Assembly: GCF_007752135.1 (NCBI RefSeq)
Contig: NZ_CP036298.1
Span: 6,200,859 to 6,264,858, forward strand
Direction of reading: 5' to 3'
DNA from: Aureliella helgolandensis
GTDB lineage: Bacteria > Planctomycetota > Planctomycetia > Pirellulales > Pirellulaceae
Length of the DNA stretch: 64,000 bases
Part shown: positions 9,902-23,097 of the stretch, piece after piece
Numbering within the stretch: position 1 is the first letter of the stretch
Layout: each line of letters begins with the position of its first letter
Made by a program: the position numbers and the translations under genes
Notes under the pieces: generated by a model
What the model was told of the DNA's origin: nothing
The model's input: the letters and a program-made list of their open reading frames with translations, nothing else
Database searches by the model: none

Positions 9902-11347
9902 TTAACTGGTAAGGGCTGGCAATTCAAAGCCGGGTCTGTAATGCCCGCCGAGAAGTTGATTCGCCTCGGGGCTATCCACAAAGGTTTCCGTCGATGAGTC
10001 AAACTGAAGCGTGGGACCAAGGCGATAGGAAGCTTGGGATAGCTTCAAGCCGGCGGCGTCAACCAGATGCTGTTTCATATCATCAAAGGATTCCGCAGCA
10101 AGCTGGTTGTCAGAAAGTTGCTGGGGAAAGTGGCTGAAAGAAGCCTCCCGGCCCAGGCGATAAGAGATATTGCCGAGATGAGCGACCGCAGCCGTACGAT
10201 GCCCATCGAGCACATCCGAGGCTAGGTCTGCGCTTTTGCGGCTACGGACACAATCGATAAAGTTCTGAAAATGATCGCGCGCGTAATCTTGCGGAAGCCC
10301 GCTCACCGGCGCTCCCTCGATCACTTCTCCCTCTTTCTTACCATGAACATAGAATTTACCTTCCTTGATTACGCCTTCGTCTGTATGAAACTCGATGCTC
10401 ATTTTCAGCGGTTTGTCGAAGTGCAGACCTCGTTGTTGACACACCAGCTTGGCATCGCCGAAATCATACAGTGTTAGCTGTGTATTGGGGGTCTCTGCTT
10501 GGTCTTCGTATCCGTAGCGACCTCCCAGACTGACCACGGATTTTGGATTGGCACTTGCGGACATCGCCCAGCGCACCATTTCGAATTCATGGGCACCAAG
10601 ATTGGCAATTTCCCCATCGCCATAGTCCCACATCCAATGCCACCGGTAGTGGACGAGATTGGTTCGATACGGATTCAGCGGAGCAGGTCCGGTCCACAGA
10701 TCGTAGTCCAAGGCGCGCGGCGGTGGTACCGGCTCCTTAAAGCCAATACTTTTCCGAGGGCGGAAGATCTGGATATTGGCCGTCTTCAGTTTGCCGTACT
10801 TGCCGTCTCGAATATCAGTGGTGTAAGCCTTCCATTGCGGATCGGAGCGCCACTGCGTGCCGTGTTGAACGATTCGGCGATGCTTGTGGGCCGCGTCGAC
10901 CATTCGACGGCCTTCAATAATATTGTGACTGCAGGGCTTCTCGACATAGACATCCTTCCCTGCCTGACATGCCCAAATGGTCATCAGAGCGTGCCAGTGA
11001 TTGGGCGTCGCGATCGAAACCGCATCCACCGAAGGGTCATCGAGCACTTCGCGGATATCTTGCACACACTTTGGCTTTTTCCCCGTGAGTCGTTCCACTG
11101 CGGCACTTCGCGACGCGAACAGCCGGCTGTCTGGATCGACCAGATGCGTAATTTCCACACCCTTCATCGCGCCGAAGACGCCCATGTGGACTTGTCCACG
11201 ACCATTGATTCCGGCAATGGCAACACGAACGCGATCGTTCGCTCCCACGACTTCGGCAGACGATTTGGTACCGGAAATTGTTGCCGAGGCAGCAATACCA
11301 CTTGCAGCTACGCGCGTGATAAATTTACGACGATTTGGTCGATTCAT
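9902..11347 (-). CDS. Gfo/Idh/MocA family oxidoreductase, Tat-exported
   Basis: A 481-residue NAD(P)-dependent oxidoreductase family member. The ATG at 11347 opens a Tat leader (NRRKFITRVAASGIAASATI); the frame can be extended to 11377 but gains nothing. The Rossmann motif GINGRG is at about residues 46-51, and the family EKP motif is at 136-138 (VYVEKPCSHN), followed by the GFO_IDH_MocA C-terminal domain (YRWHWMWDYGDGEIANLGAHE). Members act on sugars or inositols; exported versions are abundant in planctomycetes. It lies 354 bp downstream of the DapA-like gene on the same strand, with four REP-like units between. Exact substrate unknown. Confidence 0.93.
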   Translation of the reverse strand: MNRPNRRKFITRVAASGIAASATISGTKSSAEVVGANDRVRVAIAGINGRGQVHMGVFGAMKGVEITHLVDPDSRLFASRSAAVERLTGKKPKCVQDIREVLDDPSVDAVSIATPNHWHALMTIWACQAGKDVYVEKPCSHNIIEGRRMVDAAHKHRRIVQHGTQWRSDPQWKAYTTDIRDGKYGKLKTANIQIFRPRKSIGFKEPVPPPRALDYDLWTGPAPLNPYRTNLVHYRWHWMWDYGDGEIANLGAHEFEMVRWAMSASANPKSVVSLGGRYGYEDQAETPNTQLTLYDFGDAKLVCQQRGLHFDKPLKMSIEFHTDEGVIKEGKFYVHGKKEGEVIEGAPVSGLPQDYARDHFQNFIDCVRSRKSADLASDVLDGHRTAAVAHLGNISYRLGREASFSHFPQQLSDNQLAAESFDDMKQHLVDAAGLKLSQASYRLGPTLQFDSSTETFVDSPEANQLLGGHYRPGFELPALTS

Positions 11348-11402
11348 GGTTGAGCACTTGAAGGGTTCGTTGTTCACAGGATTCGGTCGGATATCGCCAG
11401 TT

Positions 11403-11690
11403 CTTCGTAGCTACGCTCGCCAGAGCGTGCGAAACGCAACTCACCCACCGTCTGGCGACGGTAGCTACAAGCGGACTTCGTAGCTACGCTCGCCAGAGCG
11501 TGGGAAACGCAACGCACCCACCGTCTGGCGACGGTAGCTACCAGCGGTCTCCGTAGCTACGCTCGCCAGAGCGTGGGAAACACAACTCGCCCACCGTCTG
11601 GCGACGGTAGCTACCAGCGGTCTTCGTAGCTACGCCCGCCAGAGCGTGGGAGACGCAACTCGCCCACCGCCTGGCGACGGTAGCTGTCAA
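11403..11690. repeat. Array of four 73-bp REP-like (BIME-type) units
   Basis: Four near-identical units start at 11403, 11476, 11549 and 11622. Each holds two imperfect palindromes in inverted orientation: GTAGCTACGCTCGCCAGAGC followed by GTGGG (form A), then CCCACCGTCTGGCGACGG followed by TAGCTAC (complement of form B, GTAGCTACCGTCGCCAGACG then GTGGG). Outer arms and GCCA loop are shared, whereas the inner arms differ in a compensated way (GCTC/GAGC versus CGTC/GACG). The same elements surround the RAYT gene at 20.8-21.8 kb. The array fills most of the gap between the DapA-like and Gfo/Idh genes. Structured-RNA and mobile-repeat roles are both possible. Confidence 0.95.
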
Positions 11691-11701
11691 CGTTAGGCTG
11701 A

Positions 11702-12799
11702 CTAGGACAAATCAGGCCTCACCTCTTTCAGGTAAGGCTGCAGTTCCTCGAAGCGAGCGTCAGCCTCTGCCAACTGTTCGTTACTGAGCTTCAGTTCGGA
11801 AAGAATTGGTGCGGTAGGAATTGATTTTCCGGGGCCATAATCGCGAGATATCAAATTCTTGAAAACGCCTCGCTTCTTCCAAATGTACAGGTTCGCACCA
11901 CGCAAGCTACCTGGCTTTACCTTGACCATTTGCACGAACTTTTCGAACACATCTTGCAGTGTCTTCGGATCGTCACCGCGCTGCTGCAATTCCCAGATGC
12001 GCGTAAGTACGTCGGCGTACGCGGCGCGTTCGGTGATCACACCTTCCGATCCCAGCTGAGCCTCTTGGAGCCAATGGAATCCACCGCGTGCACTGAACAC
12101 TCGTCGCACCGGAGGCATGGCGGCAAGAGAAGTGCGCATGCGTCCCAAAACATCGCCCGCCTCTTCCTTGATATAGCCAAAGTGTGGAAACTCCGTTGCC
12201 AATTCAATCATCAGTTCCGGTGAAGGAAGAGGCCCTTTGTAGGACACTCCACCAGTTGTTTGGAGAATGACCGGCCTGTGAGCCACCGCAGCGAGCGCTC
12301 TCCAGTATTGCCGTAAATCGTCCTCAGACACTCCAGAATCGGGCGGTCGCGAGATGATGGCTTCCGGCCCCAACTCCTCAGCGTGCTCGGCGAACGCAAG
12401 CATCTCCCCCACATCCTTCCCTTGAACTCCAAGGCACAGTGAGGTGGGTAGGCTGCGAGTTGTTTGGGCCAACACCTCCATACCTTTCATTTTCTCATCC
12501 ATCGTCAACAGATCGACGCTGTCTCCCGATTGTGGCCAGATCATTCCAGGGCAACCACCCCAAGCAACAAACTTGGCCTGTTGTGCCAACACTTCATAGT
12601 CGACTTCCCCCGACTCCGTAAACGGAGTTGATAGGATCGGAAACGGTCCACGGACCTTGGGATCAGCCGGTACAGTGGCAGGGTTCTCCTTGGCGCCCAG
12701 CAGCTTCCTCGGCAAAATCGCCCCGGCAACCACGCCGGAAAAGCCGGCCAATGTACTCCTGATTGCGGTTCGTCGAGATAGTTGTTGTTTGGATATCAT
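11702..12799 (-). CDS. DapA/N-acetylneuraminate lyase superfamily protein, Tat-exported
   Basis: A 365-residue (beta/alpha)8-barrel protein of the dihydrodipicolinate synthase/NAL superfamily. The N-terminus SRRTAIRSTLAGFSGVVAGA is a Tat-like leader; GAGG six bases before the ATG supports the start at 12799. The likely Schiff-base lysine is Lys211 in HFGYIKEEAGD. The usual YNxP tyrosine motif is not apparent: the aligned segment reads VILQTTGGVSYKG, so catalysis may differ from true DapA. A periplasmic location argues against lysine biosynthesis; aldol cleavage of a sugar acid is a more natural guess. It is followed by the Gfo/Idh/MocA gene on the same strand. Confidence 0.88.
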   Translation of the reverse strand: MISKQQLSRRTAIRSTLAGFSGVVAGAILPRKLLGAKENPATVPADPKVRGPFPILSTPFTESGEVDYEVLAQQAKFVAWGGCPGMIWPQSGDSVDLLTMDEKMKGMEVLAQTTRSLPTSLCLGVQGKDVGEMLAFAEHAEELGPEAIISRPPDSGVSEDDLRQYWRALAAVAHRPVILQTTGGVSYKGPLPSPELMIELATEFPHFGYIKEEAGDVLGRMRTSLAAMPPVRRVFSARGGFHWLQEAQLGSEGVITERAAYADVLTRIWELQQRGDDPKTLQDVFEKFVQMVKVKPGSLRGANLYIWKKRGVFKNLISRDYGPGKSIPTAPILSELKLSNEQLAEADARFEELQPYLKEVRPDLS

Positions 12800-13455
12800 G
12801 ATGCGCCTCGGAATTCAGATTAAACGTTGCAGGTCTACGGTAGCGTGAAGCTTCTGCAGAAGCCAGAGAATGTGAATCGAAATCATTTAAAGGAAAAAAT
12901 GCGAGCTGCGACGCTGGTGCCATGTCAACATAGCGATCGGCATCGGAGAAGCGAGCATTTCTGGAAGTTGTACCACGACCATTGGTGTTCGGCAGAGTTG
13001 AGCTTTGCTCTCGCTTTGCCTGCAGCCCAAAAGATTCAGCAGCATCATGAACATGCTCCCTCGCGCCCCATTCGTTATCAGATCGACGTCTAGGCTAACA
13101 GGCAGGTTAAGAATGTTGGTGTAAAATCGTTGGTTTCGCTGCCAATGGACTCGTTTCTGAGCGTACGCCGCGGAGTAAGGATGCACGGCCAATCCAATTG
13201 ACTTAAAATGTTTTTTACAACTCCCACCTTGTGCTCGCGTTGCGGTCCGGAAGAACGCCAGACAGCCTGAGAACGGCGAAAACATCCGTAATGGCGAGCA
13301 ATCGTGCCCCAGGTCGATAGTCCGGCCGCGGCTTACCATCCATGCTAGATTGCCGCAGAATCCATCCAAATTGAGAGCATTTTGTATTAGGGAAATTCAA
13401 CTGCAGTGTCTGCGGTGAGTGATCGAGTTGGAGGCTACTGTTACTGGAGTTTTTT
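12800..13455. other. Intergenic region
   Basis: No gene recognised. A 160-residue minus-strand frame (12887-13369) has no recognisable domain and composition unlike neighbouring proteins. The stretch separates the divergent DapA-like gene and the next plus-strand operon, so promoters in both directions are expected, but none was identified with confidence. Confidence 0.5.
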
Positions 13456-13872
13456 GTGAGCGCGAGTGTGAATCAGTCTAAAGTTCAATCCTTGGTGCAG
13501 GTGCTCTCCGAGCATGTTGGCCGAAGATGCCGGTACAATAATGCACATTGGGGCAGCCCGCTCAACACTCGCGATATACTTCACGCAACCTCGTTCGAGC
13601 CAACGCGCGTGCCCAAGGCTCGGACACATCGCGAATATCGAAAGGCCAGCAGCGCGGAGCAAGATTGGCCATCGTTACGGTTCCGAGCTGAGGCCGTGAA
13701 CGGCACTTTCTCGGACTTGCGTTCTACGGACATTGCGGAGGTTGGCGTCTATTTTTCCAGAATCGATTCTTGCAAAGCGCAAGCGAAGACAAAACCGTTG
13801 CCACCGATGCCCTTAACGCTAGACGACCTTCGTGCAAGCCTAATCTGCAAGATTGAGGAGACGCAACAATGA
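13456..13872 (+). CDS. Hypothetical protein, doubtful
   Basis: A 138-residue frame with a GTG start. Two things favour it: GGAG six bases before the GTG, and an ATGA overlap with the start of the following LamG-PSD1 gene, which suggests translational coupling. Against it, no domain is recognised, the sequence is rich in Arg and Thr with little hydrophobic core, and GTG is a weaker start. The C-terminal part (PLPPMPLTLDDLRASLICKI) looks the most protein-like. No function is proposed. Confidence 0.3.
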   Translation: MSASVNQSKVQSLVQVLSEHVGRRCRYNNAHWGSPLNTRDILHATSFEPTRVPKARTHREYRKASSAEQDWPSLRFRAEAVNGTFSDLRSTDIAEVGVYFSRIDSCKAQAKTKPLPPMPLTLDDLRASLICKIEETQQ

Positions 13873-16800
13873 GACTCTGTGGGAAAGTATGTAGCGACGA
13901 CGACACACGGGGTCTCGCACCACTTCCGGTCCGCCCGCTGGTTGCCGCGACTCTCGCCCTATTGATCTTAGCTACAGCCGCTGAGGCTCTAGCAGCGGAA
14001 CCGTTGCTGGAGTGGCGTTTCGATGGCGAATCGCAGACGGGTACGTGGCTGGGAAAATCTGGCACACCTGTCGATGGTCCACGACCTCCGCGGTACCCCG
14101 GATTCGGAAACAGCAATACGGGCACATCTTTCACCGGACACGAAGGCGCGATTCTGATCAAGGATCATGAGCGTGGCGGTGCTACCGATGTTCGATTCGG
14201 CAGTGGCGACACGTTCGCCTTTGAAACTTGGGTGAAATTCAGAACCCTCCGCCCTGGCCAAACGGCCTATGTGCTGGGCAAGGGACGCCACCCAAACCAC
14301 GGAGACGATTTTCCGGACAACAATCAAAATTATTCCATCCGGTTTCATGGAACGGGCGGTGGTGCCCAATTCGGACTGCTCTTTACGAGCGAGCATCCGG
14401 AGACGAAGAAGCGTGCATGGCATCGCTGGTGGAGTACGGCGGTCGTACCGGCCACCGGCTGGCACCATGTGGCGCTCGAGTTCACGTTTGGGAAGAGCGA
14501 CAGCCTGCAAGCCTGGATCGATGGCAGCCCGGTCACAGGCACTTGGGATGAGAGCGGCGCCACAGATCTGCCTCCTGTGCAGGACGCCGACGACCTCGTG
14601 ATCGGCACTGGCTTTAGCCGCGGTGAAAGCTCATCGTTTCAAGGCTCGTTGGACAACTTGGCGATTTATCGCAGGGGCTTTGAGCCCACTGAGATCGCCC
14701 AGCGCTACCGCTTTGTCCCGCCGCCGCCGGCCGTGACACGCGAGATGATTCCTTCCGGCAAAGTCTTAGTGCAGATTAGCGAGGAGGGCGTTCCCCAAGC
14801 CAACGCCTGGCCACCGGAGCCACAGGTCACCGAGAAGTATCACGAAGATGTGTTTGGCTTCTTTGAACTTCCCCACAAGTACGTCGCCACGGGAGTCCGG
14901 GGAGATCGAGCCAATCCCTTGCACTTGCGGGCTTCGGCGTTAGTCACATTACCCGCCGGCAAACACCGCATATTAGTGCGTGGCCGTGGGATGTGTCAGC
15001 TTTTCATAGACGCAAAGAAATTGCTCGAAACCCCGCCGCGACCGCACGACCCCGGCGGGTATGAGCCGCTTTCCAGTCAGGACGATTATCTCGATCTCGG
15101 CCCAGACTTTCGCTTTGCACCGCCCGGAAATCGCGATGCATGGTGTGAATTCGAAACCTCCGGTGGCGAGCATTTCGTTATTTTGGAAACAATGGTGGGA
15201 GGCATCATTGGACGGAGCACGTTCCGGCCCGAACTCGGCGAGACCGTCGTGGCAGTTTCCCTGGAAGGGAGCCAAACTTGGTCGCTACTATCGGCCGGAG
15301 CGCGTGACGTGCGTTACACGGACGAAGGCTGGCGGGCGTATGAAGCAGAGCGTCGCGAGGTGCTCGCCAGCATAAATGCGGCTGCCCGTGCGGAGCGTCG
15401 AGCTGCCCATCACCAGTACTGGGACCGCCGGCGTACCGCTGCTTCCGAGTGGCTGGCTGACATCGACAGGGTTCCCGTACCGGAGTCGCCCAACGGTTAT
15501 CCTGCTCATAATGAAATCGACCATTTTATTAATGCGAGGATCGCGGAAGTTAAGAGGGACGCGATCCAAGACGACCAGGGTGGCGTGGACTACTTCAAAG
15601 AGATCCGTCCTCTTCTGGAGACGCGTTGCTACGACTGCCACCAAGGCGTCAAGGCTCAGGGAGACCTGCGTCTTGACGATCCCATGTCCACGTTGGCAGG
15701 CGGCGCTTACGAGGGGTCTGCCATCGTCCCTGGCAACATTGAAGAGAGCGCGTTGATGGACCGGATCACTTCGACGGACGAAGATAGCGTGATGCCACCA
15801 ACCGGCGATCCGTTGACGGACGAAGAAGTAGCTCTGCTGAAGCGTTGGATTGAAGGAGGTGCCACCTGGCCGCAGTTTGATGTCGACCATTTCGAGCAGA
15901 ATCCGCTCGCCGACGACCTCAGCTTTCTCCGGCGCGTGACGCTAGACACCGTCGGAGTGCCGCCCACTGAGTCTGAAATTGCCGTGTTCCGTACCGCCCC
16001 ACCGGAAACGCGGCGCGCCGAGGTGATCGATCGGTTGCTGCAAGATCCCCGTTGGGCAGATAACTGGATGGGTTACTGGCTTGACGTACTCGCCGAGAAC
16101 CCGAACATGATCAACCCAACGCTGAACAACACCGGTCCATTCCGATGGTGGTTGTACGAGTCGCTGCTTGATAACAAGCCCGCCGACCTTTTCGCAACCG
16201 AGCTAATTCGCATGGAGGGTAGCGAGCGATATGGCGGCCCAGCCGGCTTTGGCACAGCGACGCAGAACGACCTGCCAATGGCCGCCAAGGGGATTATTGT
16301 CAGCTCTGCATTTCTGGGAGTCGAAATGAAATGCGCCCGTTGTCATGACGCCCCTTCGCACATATCGCTGCAAGAGGATTTGCTACAGCTCGCGGCATCG
16401 TTAAAACAGCAACCGATCAAGCTGCCCGCTTCCAGCAGCGTTCCCATGGGGCCGTTGAGTCAGGCGGGTCGCAAGCCTCTGATTCAGGTAACCCTGGAAC
16501 CGGGAACCGAGGTGGAGCCGGCCTGGCCGTTCGCCCGCTACTGCGAGGAATCGGTCGCAGATACACTGGCAGAACATCCACAAGACTCGCGAGATCGACT
16601 GGCTGCACTCATCACCGCTCCGCAGAACGAGCGTTTTGCCCAGGTAATGGTGAATCGCATTTGGCAGCGGTTGATGGGACGTGGCCTGGTCGTCACGGTG
16701 TCCGACTGGGAAAAGAACAGTCCCTCGCATCCAGAACTGCTACGTTGGCTAGGGCACCAGTTTGTAGCATGCGGCTATGACCTGAAAGCCATCAGCCGAA

Positions 16801-17612
16801 TGATTTTGAATTCGCATGCGTATCAACGTGCGACCGACCCAACGCTCCCCCGAACCAGTCCACTGTTCGTCTCGCCAGCCCCTCGGCGTTTGACGGCTGA
16901 ACAGATCGTCGATTCCGTTTTCCATGCAACCGGCACTCCGTTCGACCTGGAAGAGGTCAGCCTGGACATCGACAGCGTACGTGCTGTGGACACCACGATC
17001 AGCCTTGGAAAGGCACGACGCTGCTGGATGCTCGCCTCAAGCTCCAACGAGCGCGATCGGCCCAGTTTGTCGCTGCCACGAATCACTGCGGTAACGAGCG
17101 TGTTGAAGACATTCGGCTGGCGTGGTGCGCGGCAGGATCCGCAGAGTCTTCGTGACACCGAGCCCAATATCTTGCAGCCGGCGATTTTCGCCAACGGTGT
17201 CATGAGTATTTGGCTGACGCGGCTCAGCGACCGACACGGAATCACGCAACTCGCTCTGGAGGATCAACCCGTAGACGAACTCGTCGACCGCGTTTTCCTC
17301 CGACTGCTCACTCGGAGCCCATCCCCCCATGAGAAAGAACGCTACGTTCGCTTCCTGTCCGAGGGCTACGACACACGCGTGATTCCCGAATCGCAACGCG
17401 TCCGCCCCACACCTGGCAAACGCGAGCCGGAGCGCTACGTGAGCTGGTCAAACCACGTCGATGGCCCGGCCAATACCCTGGCTGTGCAAAAGGAAGCCGA
17501 CGCCCGTCGCGGCGATCCTCCGACGAATGCCTTGAACAATGACTGGCGTCTCCGCATGGAAGACGTCCTGTGGGCCGTCCTCAATGCCCCCGAATGGATT
17601 TACACGCCCTAA
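13869..17612 (+). CDS. LamG-PSCyt1-DUF1549-DUF1553 protein
   Basis: A 1247-residue exported protein. GAGGAG precedes the ATG at 13869, and the signal peptide core is LVAATLALLILATAAEALA. A LamG/concanavalin-type domain follows (about residues 35-280; LEWRFDG, FETWVKF, WHHVALEF, GSLDNLAIYRRG), then a linker domain and a PSCyt1 domain with CYDCH at residues 587-591. DUF1549 carries CARCHDAPSH at about 822, and DUF1553 begins near 930 (SPSHPELLRWLG). The LamG domain suggests glycan binding tethered to redox chemistry. The DUF1501 gene follows 147 bp downstream. A paralogous cassette lies inverted at 21811-26859. Confidence 0.92.
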   Translation: MRLCGKVCSDDDTRGLAPLPVRPLVAATLALLILATAAEALAAEPLLEWRFDGESQTGTWLGKSGTPVDGPRPPRYPGFGNSNTGTSFTGHEGAILIKDHERGGATDVRFGSGDTFAFETWVKFRTLRPGQTAYVLGKGRHPNHGDDFPDNNQNYSIRFHGTGGGAQFGLLFTSEHPETKKRAWHRWWSTAVVPATGWHHVALEFTFGKSDSLQAWIDGSPVTGTWDESGATDLPPVQDADDLVIGTGFSRGESSSFQGSLDNLAIYRRGFEPTEIAQRYRFVPPPPAVTREMIPSGKVLVQISEEGVPQANAWPPEPQVTEKYHEDVFGFFELPHKYVATGVRGDRANPLHLRASALVTLPAGKHRILVRGRGMCQLFIDAKKLLETPPRPHDPGGYEPLSSQDDYLDLGPDFRFAPPGNRDAWCEFETSGGEHFVILETMVGGIIGRSTFRPELGETVVAVSLEGSQTWSLLSAGARDVRYTDEGWRAYEAERREVLASINAAARAERRAAHHQYWDRRRTAASEWLADIDRVPVPESPNGYPAHNEIDHFINARIAEVKRDAIQDDQGGVDYFKEIRPLLETRCYDCHQGVKAQGDLRLDDPMSTLAGGAYEGSAIVPGNIEESALMDRITSTDEDSVMPPTGDPLTDEEVALLKRWIEGGATWPQFDVDHFEQNPLADDLSFLRRVTLDTVGVPPTESEIAVFRTAPPETRRAEVIDRLLQDPRWADNWMGYWLDVLAENPNMINPTLNNTGPFRWWLYESLLDNKPADLFATELIRMEGSERYGGPAGFGTATQNDLPMAAKGIIVSSAFLGVEMKCARCHDAPSHISLQEDLLQLAASLKQQPIKLPASSSVPMGPLSQAGRKPLIQVTLEPGTEVEPAWPFARYCEESVADTLAEHPQDSRDRLAALITAPQNERFAQVMVNRIWQRLMGRGLVVTVSDWEKNSPSHPELLRWLGHQFVACGYDLKAISRMILNSHAYQRATDPTLPRTSPLFVSPAPRRLTAEQIVDSVFHATGTPFDLEEVSLDIDSVRAVDTTISLGKARRCWMLASSSNERDRPSLSLPRITAVTSVLKTFGWRGARQDPQSLRDTEPNILQPAIFANGVMSIWLTRLSDRHGITQLALEDQPVDELVDRVFLRLLTRSPSPHEKERYVRFLSEGYDTRVIPESQRVRPTPGKREPERYVSWSNHVDGPANTLAVQKEADARRGDPPTNALNNDWRLRMEDVLWAVLNAPEWIYTP

Positions 17613-17759
17613 CTCCTTTCCGTTCGGGCAGCGCCGTAGCAGAAGCGAAGCCATTCGCTGCGGAAAAAAGCTTTCGGTAAGTCACAGACGGTGGCCCCCT
17701 TCAACAGCCCAGGCCAGCGCCGGTGGCTTACACAATTATTCACCCCGTGGATCACGCTT

Positions 17760-19040
17760 ATGAACCGCCGACACTTCCTAACCCACACCGGAGGACTCGC
17801 TGGGGCCGCACTTGCCGGTCGCTCGGCACTCGCATTACCGACTACGACCGCCGCCCCGAAAGGCAAAGCCGAAAACGTGGTGTTCATCTGGTTGGGCGGG
17901 GGGATGTCCCAAATCGACACCTTCGATCCCAAACATCGTGGCAACTCGCAAGCATCGCCGAAGCTCGCCGGTTCGGAGTACGCTGCGATCGACACCGCCG
18001 TGGCAGGAGTGCAATTCTGCGAACACCTGAGCCGCACTGCAAAGCTCGCCGATCGCCTGACCGCCCTACGGACGGTGAATCACCACCTCGTGGACGAACA
18101 TGCTTTTGGCACCAACTTCGTTCACACCGGCCGTCTCATCAGCGGTAGCATCACGTACCCTTCGATCGGTTCTATCATCGGGCACGTGCGTGGTGCGGTG
18201 AATCAGGATGCCCCACCCTACATGCTGATCGGCTATCCCAACGTCAGCCGTGGCTCCGGTTTTCTGGGTGCCAAGGCAGGTTACGTTTACCTCGTCGATA
18301 CCGATAGCGGCCCTGCTGGGTTTTCCCGACCGGAAGACGTAACACCACTTCGAGTCGACCGGCGGCGTCAACTGCTTCAGCCACTGGTCGAGCGTGTCCC
18401 CGACGACTCGAGCATCTCTCAATACCGCACTGCGCAAGCCGAAGCACTGCGGTTGGCAGGACCGGAATTCATGCGTCACTTCCGCCTGCAGGATGAGCCC
18501 GACGCGTTGCGCAATGCTTACGGTGGCGAGTTCGGACAACGCTGCCTACTGGCCCGCCGCCTCGTGCAGGCGGGAGTGCGATTCGTGGAAGTCTCTCACA
18601 ACTTGAACTTCATCAACGGTACCGGCTGGGACACGCATTTTGAAGGTCAGCAGAACCAGCATATTCTCATCAATGAACTCGACATTGCGTTGTCAGCACT
18701 GCTCACCGACCTGGAGCAGCAGGGCATCCTCGATAAAACGCTCGTAGCGATTGGCACCGAGTTTGGGCGCCCCGCCGAATACGACGCTCGTGGCGGACGC
18801 GGACACCAGGGTAGTTGCTTCAGTCTGGTCCTCGCCGGCGGCGGCCTAAAGCATCAAGGTGCCTACGGCGTGACTGACGAAATCAGTAAGACCGTCATCG
18901 AAAACCCCGTTTCCGTGCCTGACTTTCACGCGACCATCCACGCGGCTCTTGGAATTAGTCCGGCTCACGAACTGTTTGACGGCTCACGACCGATTCCGAT
19001 CACCGACCAGGGAAAGCCCATCGCTGCATTGTTTGGGTAA
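17760..19040 (+). CDS. DUF1501 protein, Tat-exported
   Basis: A 426-residue DUF1501 protein. The ATG at 17760 opens [19 protein letters not shown], a Tat-like leader; an upstream in-frame ATG at 17691 would add 23 residues of no signal character. Blocks: [90 protein letters not shown]. It belongs to the GRGHQG subgroup rather than the GRDHN subgroup found at 2.3-5.7 kb. It closely resembles the protein at 21811-23097, and each follows a LamG-PSD1 gene. Confidence 0.92.
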
Positions 19041-19664
19041 TCGCCCCACTGGCTCTGTCAACATCGCTGGCTGGATGTAGCCCATCCGCCGCCCTGAGCC
19101 AAACGGTGAAGTCTCTTGCTGGCCCCAAAGCGAGCGATGGTCACCTGGCACCACCCCGCCAAAGTCCCGAGCTTTGGTGCGGCGATTCCTCAAAGACCAT
19201 TTCCCGGTCACAGTCTGGCTGGGTGCGATCACCACCAGCTATTGCATGCCTGGGGCAAGTAATGCTGCGACTGAGATTGCTAGCCGCCCGAAAGCGGCGT
19301 GGTGCACTGGTAATCTTGCGGTGTTCATGAGGCTCTTCATACTAGTGAAGGCGGGTTGGATTGGGATTCAAGCCCACTCCGCTGACGGTGGCCATGCAAT
19401 AATCCGAACATTAGGTGGTCCGTGCGTAATTTGCAAGAAACTATTTTGGACAAGCCTTACTCGATTGCTGTGGCCTCAAAAGCAAATGGTTACAATGACT
19501 TGGGAGCTGCCCCCTAGTATTCACGACCTGCCCCCATCGCCGTCCAATGGAGAAGAAAAGTCACTACTCAACGCAGCAACGGCACCGGAGCACCAGCTGA
19601 TCAACTGTTACTGAAGGAGCGAGCTCTTGCGTCAGCAGCAGAGGGAATCACGATAGCTGATGCC
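19041..19664. other. Intergenic region, possibly holding the LOV gene's true start
   Basis: No separate gene recognised. The last part (from 19518) is open in the LOV-phosphatase frame and translates to sequence resembling the usual N-terminal flank of LOV domains (ASAAEGITIADAMAPDRP), but has no in-frame ATG, GTG or TTG. An out-of-frame ATG at 19547 reads MEKKSHYS and ends at 19600. Confidence 0.6.
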
Positions 19665-20747
19665 ATGGCGCCGGACCGCCCGCTGATTTACGTCAATGAA
19701 GGTTTTACTCGGCTTACAGGTTTTAGCATTGAGGAGACGCTGGGATCTAATTGTCGCTTTCTCCAAGGACCAGAGACCGATCCGGCCGCAGTGCGAGAGC
19801 TCCGGGAGGCGATTGCGGAAGAGCGCAAATGCGAAGTTGAGCTCTTGAACTACCGAAAAGATGGCTCAACGTTTTGGAACCGTCTCTCGATCACGCCTGT
19901 GCGTAACGAAGTTGGGCAAACGACGCATTTTGTTGGGATTCAATCGGACGTCACACGAAGACGAGTTGCCGAACTTCGCCTCCGTGACCTTAACGAGAGT
20001 CTTCGCTCCGCAAACGATAAGATGCAACGTGACCTGCGCGCTGCGGCTAAAATTCAGCATGCACTGCTGCCGACACAAACGGAGTTCCTGTCGGGCACCT
20101 CTATTCGTTGGGCCTATTTACCCTGCGACGAATTGGCGGGGGATATCCTTGATATTTTCCCGATCGATGCAAACCGCGTCGCATTCTATGTTCTCGATGT
20201 GAGCGGGCATGGTGTTCAGGCGGCCCTGCTTTCGACCACACTTAGCCGCTGGCTATCGAGGTCTTCACTGGAACTAAAAACCCAGCCAGTAGAGATGCTC
20301 GAACACTTGAACGTGAACTTCCAACTCGATGGAGACTCTCAGCAGTTTTTCACCTGCTGTTACGGCCTGCTGGATCTCCGAGCATTGACGCTGAGCTTCG
20401 CGTCGGCCGGACATCCCTCACCAATCTTGTTGCGTGGAAGCAACATCCGCGAATTTCAGTTGCCTGGATTCCCAGTGGGAGTCGTCGCAAATCCTGAATA
20501 TGAACTAGAGATCATTGAACTCCGCCAAGGTGATCGGATCTTTGTCTACAGCGATGGCGCGATCGAGCAAGCGGGACAGACCGGCCAGCAATTTGGAATC
20601 GCCCGGCTCATGCAAGAGCTGAGCGCCAATCGCAGTGCTTCGTTGCAATCCAGCATCGATCTGACACTACGCGCGGTTCTCAACTCAACCTCTGACGGCA
20701 ATTCCGACGACGACATTTCGATGTTGGGAATAGAAATCGATGCGTAA
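19665..20747 (+). CDS. LOV blue-light receptor fused to SpoIIE/PP2C-type phosphatase
   Basis: A 360-residue two-domain signalling protein from the ATG at 19665. The PAS domain is of LOV type: GSNCRFLQGPETD contains the photoactive cysteine (Cys30), followed by NYRKDGSTFWN and HFVGIQSDVT, which bind flavin in LOV proteins. A short coiled-coil linker (about residues 100-135) leads to a SpoIIE-like phosphatase domain with the metal-binding aspartates in ELAGDILD, DVSGHG, VYSDGAIEQ and DDDISML. In this family light would switch dephosphorylation of an anti-sigma antagonist (RsbU-like); no partner gene is adjacent. The domain seems clipped by the ATG: LOV-like sequence extends upstream, so the start or reading frame needs review. 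Confidence 0.9.
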   Translation: MAPDRPLIYVNEGFTRLTGFSIEETLGSNCRFLQGPETDPAAVRELREAIAEERKCEVELLNYRKDGSTFWNRLSITPVRNEVGQTTHFVGIQSDVTRRRVAELRLRDLNESLRSANDKMQRDLRAAAKIQHALLPTQTEFLSGTSIRWAYLPCDELAGDILDIFPIDANRVAFYVLDVSGHGVQAALLSTTLSRWLSRSSLELKTQPVEMLEHLNVNFQLDGDSQQFFTCCYGLLDLRALTLSFASAGHPSPILLRGSNIREFQLPGFPVGVVANPEYELEIIELRQGDRIFVYSDGAIEQAGQTGQQFGIARLMQELSANRSASLQSSIDLTLRAVLNSTSDGNSDDDISMLGIEIDA

Positions 20748-20764
20748 AGATAGAAAGCTGATCG

Positions 20765-20827
20765 CGTAGCTACCGTCGCCAGACGGTGGCCCCAGCACCT
20801 CCCACGCTCTGGCGAGCGTAGCTACCG
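20765..20827. repeat. Single REP-like unit 3' of the RAYT gene
   Basis: One paired unit: GTAGCTACCGTCGCCAGACG and GTGG (form B), a short spacer, then CCCACGCTCTGGCGAGCG and TAGCTAC (complement of form A). It lies 17 bp after the LOV-phosphatase stop and 25 bp beyond the RAYT stop, between convergent genes. It matches the units at 21530-21801. Confidence 0.93.
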
Positions 20828-20852
20828 ACTGCGCAATGGATGGACTTTTCTC

Positions 20853-21449
20853 TCACCCACCAGACAAGTCTTCCCCATAAGCCCGAAACGTTCCGTGGCG
20901 ACACGTGAACGAAAAAGCCTTCCAAAATCTCGGCCAATAGTCGTCTTGCCACAACCTCAATTCAGGGTAACCAGGCACGAGACACCCCGTGTACTTGTAG
21001 CTTGCAAAGCCGTCTTGAGGAACGAGTTTGGCGCGTTCGGGATTTCGCGCAACGTAGTCCACTAAATCCTCGAACGCGGACTCCTGACGTTCATCATCTC
21101 TCAATACTCGATCATGCGGCTGATGTTGAAATTTGAAGCCTATTCTCCCGAGCGTTTCGTTGACATGCTTGCGGAAGTACTTGGAGGCCTTCAGTTGATC
21201 GGTACGATCGTTCATCCCGATCCATATCATGTGCATGTGATCTGGCATCAGGCAATAGATCGGGCACGTAAAGCAGAATCGAAACGCTGCGTGTGTCAAG
21301 AGTTCACGAAACTTGTAGAGAAAAATGGGTTTTAACCAACCGGTTCGGCGACCTTGGAGCGTCATGGTCCAATGAACATACGCGACTCCACGGTAGTATT
21401 CCGGAGCGAGCCTTGGAAGATGAGCGTCCGAGGGTTTCGGCATCGCCAT
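20853..21449 (-). CDS. REP-associated tyrosine transposase (RAYT, Y1_Tnp/IS200-like)
   Basis: A 198-residue Y1-type transposase. The HUH motif is His71-x-His73 in CLMPDHMHMIWIG, and the catalytic tyrosine is most likely Tyr132 in DYVARNPERAKLV, the usual RAYT context. C-terminal LVPGYPELRLWQDDYW completes the family pattern. RAYTs nick single-stranded REP palindromes and are thought to have spread REP sequences; they are normally single-copy and domesticated. This gene is bounded by one REP-like unit 25 bp beyond its stop and by an array starting 28 bp upstream of its start codon. All key residues are present, so it is probably active. True IS200/IS605 membership is less likely because of length and the repeat context. 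Confidence 0.93.
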   Translation of the reverse strand: MAMPKPSDAHLPRLAPEYYRGVAYVHWTMTLQGRRTGWLKPIFLYKFRELLTHAAFRFCFTCPIYCLMPDHMHMIWIGMNDRTDQLKASKYFRKHVNETLGRIGFKFQHQPHDRVLRDDERQESAFEDLVDYVARNPERAKLVPQDGFASYKYTGCLVPGYPELRLWQDDYWPRFWKAFSFTCRHGTFRAYGEDLSGG

Positions 21450-21477
21450 GTCCTCAGTGCAAGCGGAGAACGAAAGC

Positions 21478-21804
21478 CCACGCTCTGGCGAGCGTCGAAG
21501 GTCAATTCATCGTAGCTTCCCACCGCCTGCGTAGCTACCGTCGCCAGACGGTGGGATCCAGCACTGCTCACGCTCTGGCGAGCGTAGCTACCGATTGCGT
21601 AGCTACCGTCGCCAGACGGTGGGGGATCCAGCACTGCCCACGCTCTGGCGAGCGTAGCTACCGATTGCGTAGCTACCGTCGCCAGACGGTGGGGGACCCA
21701 GCACTGCTCACGCTCTGGCGAGCGTAGCTACCGACTGCGTAGCTACCGTCGCCAGACGGTGGGGGACCCAGCACTGCCCACGCTCTGGCGAGCGTAGCTA
21801 CGAC
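21478..21804. repeat. REP-like array 5' of the RAYT gene
   Basis: Four regular units start at 21530, 21598, 21668 and 21738 (68-70 bp each), preceded by a decayed copy from about 21478. Each has form B (GTAGCTACCGTCGCCAGACG then GTGG) followed by the complement of form A (CACGCTCTGGCGAGCG then TAGCTAC), the two halves separated by GGGGACCCAGCACTG-like spacers. The array ends 7 bp before the DUF1501 stop codon at 21811-21813, so it would form the 3' untranslated region of that transcript. It could be mistaken for CRISPR, but spacers are near-identical. Confidence 0.95.
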
Positions 21805-21810
21805 GGATCA

Positions 21811-23097
21811 CTAGGCAAACAACTGGGCGATGGGGGTTCCTTGGTCGGTAACGGGGACGGGGCGATCTCCCGCGTATAGGTATTTGCTGTAATCGACCCC
21901 CACACAACCGCAAATGGTGGCAAAGAAATCAGGCACGCTGACCGGATCGGCGACGATCTTCTTAGACATTTCGTCGGTTTCTCCCCAAGCTCCGCGGTGA
22001 GCCAAACCACCGCCGGCCAACACACAGCTGAACGTCGAGCCCTGATGGCCCCGTCCACCACCGCTGTCAAATTCTGGCGGGCGGCCGAATTCGCTGGTAA
22101 TCACGATCAAGGTTCTATCCAGCAAATTCTTCGCCTGAAGGTCTACGATCAAGGTGGATACGGCGGTATCCATTTCTTCGATCAACTTATGCTGATTGAC
22201 GATACCACTGTTGTGCACGTCCCACCCTGATCCGTTCAAGAAGTTCAGGTTGTGACTGACTTCAATAAACCGCACGCCGCGCTCGATTAGACGCCGGCTG
22301 AGTAGGCAGCGTTGTCCAAATTCACCGCCATAGCGATTGCGAAGAGCATCCGATTCGCCGTCGAGGTTGAAGACGCGATTAAACTCGGGACCACTCAGCT
22401 TCATGCTCTGTTCAATTGCGGCTTCATAGTCCAGCAATTCCGTCACGGCAGTAGAACCGGCACTCTTCCGCAAGGAGGCGAGGAACTGCTCGCGTCGCCC
22501 TTGGCGTTGCGGCGTGATGAAGTCGGGGCGCGACAATCCGGCGGGGCCGCGACCGGTTTCGGTCAGATACAGATATCCGTATTTGGCTCCCAAAAATCCT
22601 GGACCGCGGGTCACATTCGGATAACCGATCAAGACGTAGGGTGGCGCGTCATCGCTGGCCGGTCCCCGCTGGTTTACGATCAACGATCCCAGCGAGGGAT
22701 AGGTCACCGTGCCGCTGATCGCGCGGCCCGTATGCATGCGATTCGTGGCCGCCGCGTGTTCGTCGATCACGTTGTGATTCACCGTTCGGACGGCGGTCAC
22801 GCGGTCCATGACCTTGGCCATCGACGCTAGGTGCTGGCAGACCTGCACCCCGTCAACAGCGGTGTCAATCGAGTCGTAATACGCCCCTGGTTTTCTAGCT
22901 TTGGGATCACCTTTGGCTTTGGGATCAAACGTATCGATCTGCCCCATTCCACCGCCGAGCCAGATTGAAATCACGTGCTCGGCTTTGCCTTGCAGCAACG
23001 TTTGCGGCGCACTTGCTTGAGCGATCGGCGCGATGCTCAGCGCGCCGGCTGCCGCCATACTGTTAGCCAAAAACTGTCGTCGGTTAGGATCTTGCAT
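21811..23097 (-). CDS. DUF1501 protein, Tat-exported
   Basis: A 428-residue DUF1501 protein of the GRGHQG subgroup. The leader is [20 protein letters not shown]. Blocks: [91 protein letters not shown]. It is the second gene of the minus-strand cassette, 99 bp after the LamG-PSD1 gene, and the clear paralogue of the protein at 17760-19040. A REP-like array begins directly beyond its stop. Confidence 0.92.

Follow-up and report, generated by a model that had tools for sequence, protein, structure and literature searches.

A RAYT transposase gene and its GTAG-tagged REP doublets as a probable REPtron in the planctomycete Aureliella helgolandensis

A single-copy RAYT gene in the genome of Aureliella helgolandensis and its cognate REPs probably form a REPtron, in which a Y1 HUH nuclease would mobilise REP doublets. 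The hairpins beside the gene, the covariation of their stems and a REP type that tracks the RAYT tree together point to a RAYT/REPIN system, both in the window (the whole stretch of 64,000 nucleotides that was analysed) and in homologous loci of other genomes. The comparative record of this REPtron is unusually clear, and its mobility is inferred.

The RAYT gene occupies positions 20853-21449 on the minus strand and encodes a protein of 198 aa, in which the His71-Met72-His73 motif and Tyr132 of a Y1 HUH transposase are present. Searches with this sequence against Pfam and the PDB returned nothing at 1e-3, and the NCBIfam model NF047646 (REP_Tyr_transpos) matched it with an E-value of 3.4e-9 and 36.7 bits, under the family cut-off of 80. 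This low score is a limit of the model and not a defining trait of RAYTs. All 54 aligned RAYT members (alignment A1, comprising the window RAYT and 53 of the 54 intact homologues, with the intact L120 left out) match NF047646 at E-values up to 1e-3 (best 4.6e-12), and 19/54 match the Pfam family Y1_Tnp at 0.01. A profile of the 54 proteins weakly detects 4er8 (E 0.034), the E. coli RAYT (TnpA-REP) bound to a REP hairpin. The AlphaFold2 model derived from the 54-protein alignment (mean pLDDT 92.3) likewise has 4er8 as its top Foldseek match (E 8.6e-8) and as its best match in VIA-align (Z 14.2 over 147 residues, rmsd 2.9; next row 9.7), making this the nearest structure to the window RAYT. The residues H71, H73, Q108 and Y132 show at least 90% conservation, up to full invariance, across the 54 aligned proteins, and the tyrosine motif of the window RAYT reads YVARNP, with NP. 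The Y1 fold, HUH motif and single catalytic tyrosine by which a RAYT is recognised are thus all found in the window protein, and both the ORF residues and the fold match to 4er8 bear out the earlier note, which had proposed a Y1-type RAYT on the basis of His71, His73 and Tyr132. A single close RAYT gene is present in the genome, as that note had also anticipated, the next matches being partial ones at 32 and 35% identity.

As in other REPtrons, inverted GTAG-tagged hairpins stand on either side of the gene. Two forms, or hands, of the repeat can be distinguished, hand A (GTAG-CTACCGTC-GCCA-GACGGTGG) and hand B (GTAG-CTACGCTC-GCCA-GAGCGTGG), each of which folds singly into an 8-bp hairpin with a GCCA loop, preceded by an unpaired GTAG foot. 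One doublet lies downstream of the gene, with hand A at 20766-20789 (plus strand) and hand B at 20802-20825 (minus strand), the foot of the latter being situated 27 nt beyond the RAYT stop. Upstream, a hand B half unit without a foot (21476-21495, minus strand; 27 nt ahead of the start codon) is followed by four complete doublets at 21531-21591 (A plus, B minus), 21599-21661, 21669-21731 and 21739-21801, with start-to-start spacings of 68, 70 and 70. This array takes up the region from 27 to 350 nt ahead of the RAYT start, and 10 bp separate its beginning from the stop of a DUF1501 gene on the same strand. A second array of the same family, with four doublets (B plus, A minus) at a 73-bp period, is located at 11407-11687 between a GFO/IDH/MocA gene and a DHDPS-family gene, and brings the doublets in the window to nine. 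Each of two 20-mers from the repeat had nine window matches at up to 3 mismatches, against dinucleotide-shuffle means of 0.01 and 0.00, and an Rfam scan of 11300-22000 matched no family. The DUF1501 and PSCyt1/PSCyt2/PSD1 genes among the window neighbours fit a planctomycete, as do the named relatives. The four to five units previously noted near the start codon correspond to the half unit and the four doublets, and the one unit past the stop to the downstream doublet, the nearest hand of which is 27 and not 25 nt from the stop. The earlier description of these units as tail-to-tail must be amended, as doublets with GTAG feet on the outside are head-to-head in the terms used in the text of Di Nocera 2013 (PMC3733652).

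The two hands differ at four bases, which amount to two compensatory pair swaps inside each hairpin. When the doublet at 21739-21801 is folded as one strand, a long hairpin is favoured by energy (-19.3 kcal/mol, z -3.61; DNA fold z -3.49 for the doublet at 21669-21731), with mismatches at the positions swapped between A and B. Since the swaps keep each single hairpin and spoil the long joint one, the single hand, rather than the joint fold, appears to be the recognised and conserved unit.

Across the genome, which consists of one contig of 8,439,957 bases, 91 copies of the joint A/B pattern are found at up to one mismatch, while the single forms at up to two mismatches give 43 A and 49 B matches, with none for the reversed-pattern controls. 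Both the many genomic copies and the single or low-copy RAYT gene of a REPtron are thus present, though the copies fall into only about 13 sites (grouped by eye), mostly tandem arrays, and about 12 of the sites stand away from any close RAYT. Of the tens to hundreds of intergenic copies initially expected, tens were found and hundreds were not, and the dearth of further copies that would have spoken against the proposal did not occur. In the 11 places read, most REPs lie outside long ORFs with family support and two doublets are found inside genes; the single REP matches at 6657307 and 6693654 are included in the count but lie outside these places. Within the places read, neighbours with their feet outside paired unlike hands in 46 cases and like hands in none (one unclear), and those with their feet inside paired unlike hands in 37 and like hands in none, although the tandem copies in this count (12 entries, including one degenerate pair, with 846/847 and 1966/1967 taken as separate entries) are not independent. 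The description of the units as two related palindromes in inverted orientation holds. The period of the arrays varies by site (about 44, 48, 70, 73, 112, 112 and 122) and long array units contain flanking DNA specific to their site. Given this site-specific unit length, spacer and flanking DNA, the arrays probably grew in place. Foot-sharing A/B hairpins, with one common GTAGCTAC, occur at three genome sites (1972 kb, 3000 kb and 5311 kb), as well as in the loci L185, L261 and L266/L272. The eight bases of this sequence are self-complementary, which allows adjacent hairpins to share one foot.

Some of the individual sites involve coding sequence. A REP doublet (L028 1501-1551; G000:C1:1966713-1966763) is read in frame as part of a protein kinase domain (at residues about 178-194, the domain covering 87-355). 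A foot-sharing A/B pair (L004 1501-1532; G000:C1:1972481-1972512) is situated in an ORF with a sulfatase and a YHYH domain, in the stretch that separates the two, and a DUF676 esterase gene (L147; G000:C1:846201-847478) is flanked on both sides by oppositely oriented REP doublets.

Matches to the window RAYT at 1e-5 occur in 59/199 genomes of the family, and the strong rows are clearly separated from the weak ones. Sixty-four of the 67 strong rows other than its own were taken as loci, with the G139 row, one G189 fragment and the second row in the G106 locus set apart. Of the homologues in these loci, 54/64 are intact and full length and 10/64 are broken or cut; an in-frame stop is present in 5/64. 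The catalytic-tyrosine codon of the L066 homologue reads TAG. A scan of the named genome contigs with the single protein detected no relative, and with the alignment as query 80 loci were kept among at least 239 matches listed. Of these, 26/80 were dropped as their ORF was identical to one already in the set, and the resulting set of 119 loci (64 family loci, 54 of the 80 named loci and the window) ranges from planctomycetes to Verrucomicrobia.

GTAG hairpins were found upstream in 48/61 and downstream in 45/59 of the first 64 loci, in comparison with 10/113 control stretches and 92/2400 shuffles that preserve base composition only and not dinucleotides. For the named 80 loci, the corresponding values are 55/75 and 51/72 (control 10/133). 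With a threshold of 6, tandem G.A allowed and both flanks readable, 96/102 loci have at least one GTAG hairpin and 80/102 have them on both sides, the rise of the control to 22/124 being the cost of the looser pairing rule. At the stricter threshold of 7, neither flank has a hairpin in 24/102 loci (comparison figure for the control, 8/124). Homologues lacking flanking repeats, which were to have weighed against the system, thus number at most 6/102 by scan, and in all six GTAG-tagged repeats are visible by eye. The pattern GTAG-N8-GYNA-N8, when 7 or more of the 8 pairs are required, occurs 300 times in 68,413 flank bases and 32 times in 254,262 more distant bases, and the loops are almost always G-Y-N-A, or G-Y-N-A plus an extra A. 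Furthermore, the TAG stop of the RAYT gene doubles as the foot of the next REP in 19/99 loci. The order of the hands relative to the gene varies among seven close loci (the window, L064, L067, L071, L185, L068 and L233), with B first in five and A first in two. The sole window neighbour recurring in the homologous loci is DUF1501, with weak matches in 5/118.

The stems of these hairpins covary. Among 94 distinct sequences, taken as the nearest motif per locus and picked regardless of pairing, 79.7% of cells are paired, as opposed to 50.5% (sd 1.5, largest 56.1) when the 3' arms are redealt 1000 times. The REP type also follows the RAYT phylogeny. On a tree of 113 rows (6 of the 119 loci left out as too partial), the REP label changes 23 times, against a mean of 58.6 and a least value of 53 in 300 shuffles, and the 13-row clade of the window RAYT (SH-aLRT 100) includes only CTA and CCA REP types. 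Owing to the great length of the E. coli outgroup branch, the root of this tree carries no meaning. No REP label could be assigned to 26/113 rows under a rule restricted to Watson-Crick and wobble pairs, an absence that is largely an artefact, since GTAG-tagged repeats are visible in the 13 rows read by eye, and tandem G.A mismatches occur in many of these repeats. Such apparent mismatches are seen in the REP stems of L114, L116, L125, L131, L228, L251 and others, in both planctomycete and verrucomicrobial RAYT clades. Copy number is likewise associated with the gene: at least 17 REP copies are found in 9/10 genomes that have a close RAYT (at least 60% identical), compared to 12/189 others (Fisher p 2.5e-9).

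In the proposed REPtron, the RAYT would recognise single REP hairpins in single-stranded DNA by their GTAG foot, short self-complementary stem of free sequence and G-Y-N-A loop. It is predicted to cut near the hairpin through Tyr132, and REP doublets may thereby be mobilised as non-autonomous elements; the cutting of the DNA, its position and the movement of doublets in living cells are all inferred. Rare dispersal would come first, followed by local amplification of one doublet and its neighbouring DNA per site, as is suggested by the differences in unit length and spacer from site to site. Empty REP sites, which would have documented movement, were sought via flanking genes in the genus genomes and none were found. 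At 1e-40, the PAS-SpoIIE neighbour has homologues in only two other genus genomes, and in G082 (L149) the neighbours are different, while a search of the other 14 genus genomes with the DHDPS gene next to the second array matched nothing at 1e-50.

The few sites, the lack of an empty site among those sought, the RAYT score far below the NCBI family cut-off and the REP populations without a RAYT count against the REPtron. Of the genomes without a close RAYT, 12/189 hold 18-711 copies, which argues against a strict RAYT-REP pairing. For example, G028 (one contig, 100% complete; loci L271, L277, L283 and L289) contains 711 well-formed copies, the RAYT profile matches it at best with an E-value of 0.0034, and no REP of the window type occurs within about 1.5 kb of its 15 RAYT-like matches. 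There are 111 copies of the window-type REP in G023 and 66 in G038, and the RAYT profile gives no match at E 1 in either. In G189, conversely, close RAYT fragments occur together with 0 pattern copies, and degenerate REP relatives flank the fragments. According to PMC8049555, E. coli strains without the RAYT gene still have REPINs, though fewer. One tentative possibility is that PVC bacteria have their own RAYT group with one rule (GTAG foot, G-Y-N-A loop and a free but pairing stem), and that such REP populations may persist, and even peak (as in G028), without a cognate RAYT, either because a different RAYT mobilises them in trans or because the host makes use of them.

These same populations would also be expected if the repeats were passive, changing only by slippage or recombination or being retained because they serve the host as RNA hairpin, terminator or nucleoid site, with the RAYT a domesticated or relic nuclease. 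The confinement of the copies to about 13 sites, their prevalent arrangement in tandem arrays whose spacers differ from array to array, and the in-frame stops in some homologues would fit this explanation as well. It is nevertheless unlikely, considering that REP type follows RAYT clade, that copy number is associated with a close RAYT, and that most homologues are unbroken over their full length and keep the catalytic residues. The position of the upstream array, immediately before the start codon and close behind the DUF1501 gene, could further suggest that it is mainly a cis-regulator of the RAYT, forming hairpins in a transcribed leader, and no mobile substrate. This is very improbable, as the repeats also occur at the sites without a nearby close RAYT and flank homologous genes on both sides in most loci. 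An ordinary IS200/IS605 insertion sequence with REP-like subterminal hairpins, which copies its own gene, would have the Y1 HUH fold in common (IS608 chains score Z 9.7 and below against the RAYT model), but can be given hardly any credence when 91 repeats accompany one close gene copy, the nearest structure is TnpA-REP and no IS transposase, and the tyrosine motif is YVARNP and not the Y[IV]ENQ given for published IS200 transposases in Table 1 of PMC6006769.

With a REPtron as the preferred explanation, the PVC set of 119 loci constitutes a natural experiment on the joint change of a Y1 transposase and its hairpin, in which the stem varies freely and foot and loop stay fixed. Genomes rich in REPs but with no detectable partner gene make the question of how REPs are maintained testable through related genomes. 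The E. coli BIMEs, formed by Y and Z REPs, share unlike hands in inverted pairs and arrays with the window system, while the self-complementary eight-base sequence that lets neighbouring hairpins share a foot distinguishes the latter. RAYTs and their co-evolution with REPs were defined by Nunvar 2010 (PMC2817692), where a gammaproteobacterial origin was proposed, and in PMC8266576 cleavage in E. coli is shown to take place at CT, close to the REP, and GTAG to act as a guide in Marinomonas. The gammaproteobacterial REPtrons resemble the present one in the Y1 HUH protein, GTAG foot, inverted REPs on both sides, co-diversification and doublets or arrays, whereas the four-base G-Y-N-A loop, the lack of a strong NCBIfam match, the few sites with long tandem arrays and the two fixed unlike hands set it apart. 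The TnpAY1 class 3 transposases of planctomycetes, as presented in PMC6006769, share the Y1 HUH domain and the planctomycete host, but their Y---Q type motif and CnGA foot are replaced here by YVARNP and GTAG, and assignment to this class was rejected. The closest precedent is in Di Nocera 2013 (PMC3733652), the text of which reports GTAG repeats and RAYTs of the same superfamily and phylum in Rhodopirellula baltica, and in other PVC bacteria, with several REP families, many tyrosine transposase genes and clusters that include flanking DNA in R. baltica; the earlier suggestion that a planctomycete version would in itself be a distinct REP class is not supported. The R. baltica RAYT L203 is a homologue of the window RAYT and is flanked by GTAG hairpins, while the R. 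baltica genome (G164) has 0 copies of the window REP family and its REPs begin with GTAGTGG. No paper on the window REP family was found in a literature search whose coverage largely excludes subscription journals. The REPtron described here is therefore of a known kind, GTAG repeats and RAYTs having been known in R. baltica since 2013, and the REP family, the G-Y-N-A loop and the foot-sharing arrays appear to be new on comparison with the text of Di Nocera 2013.
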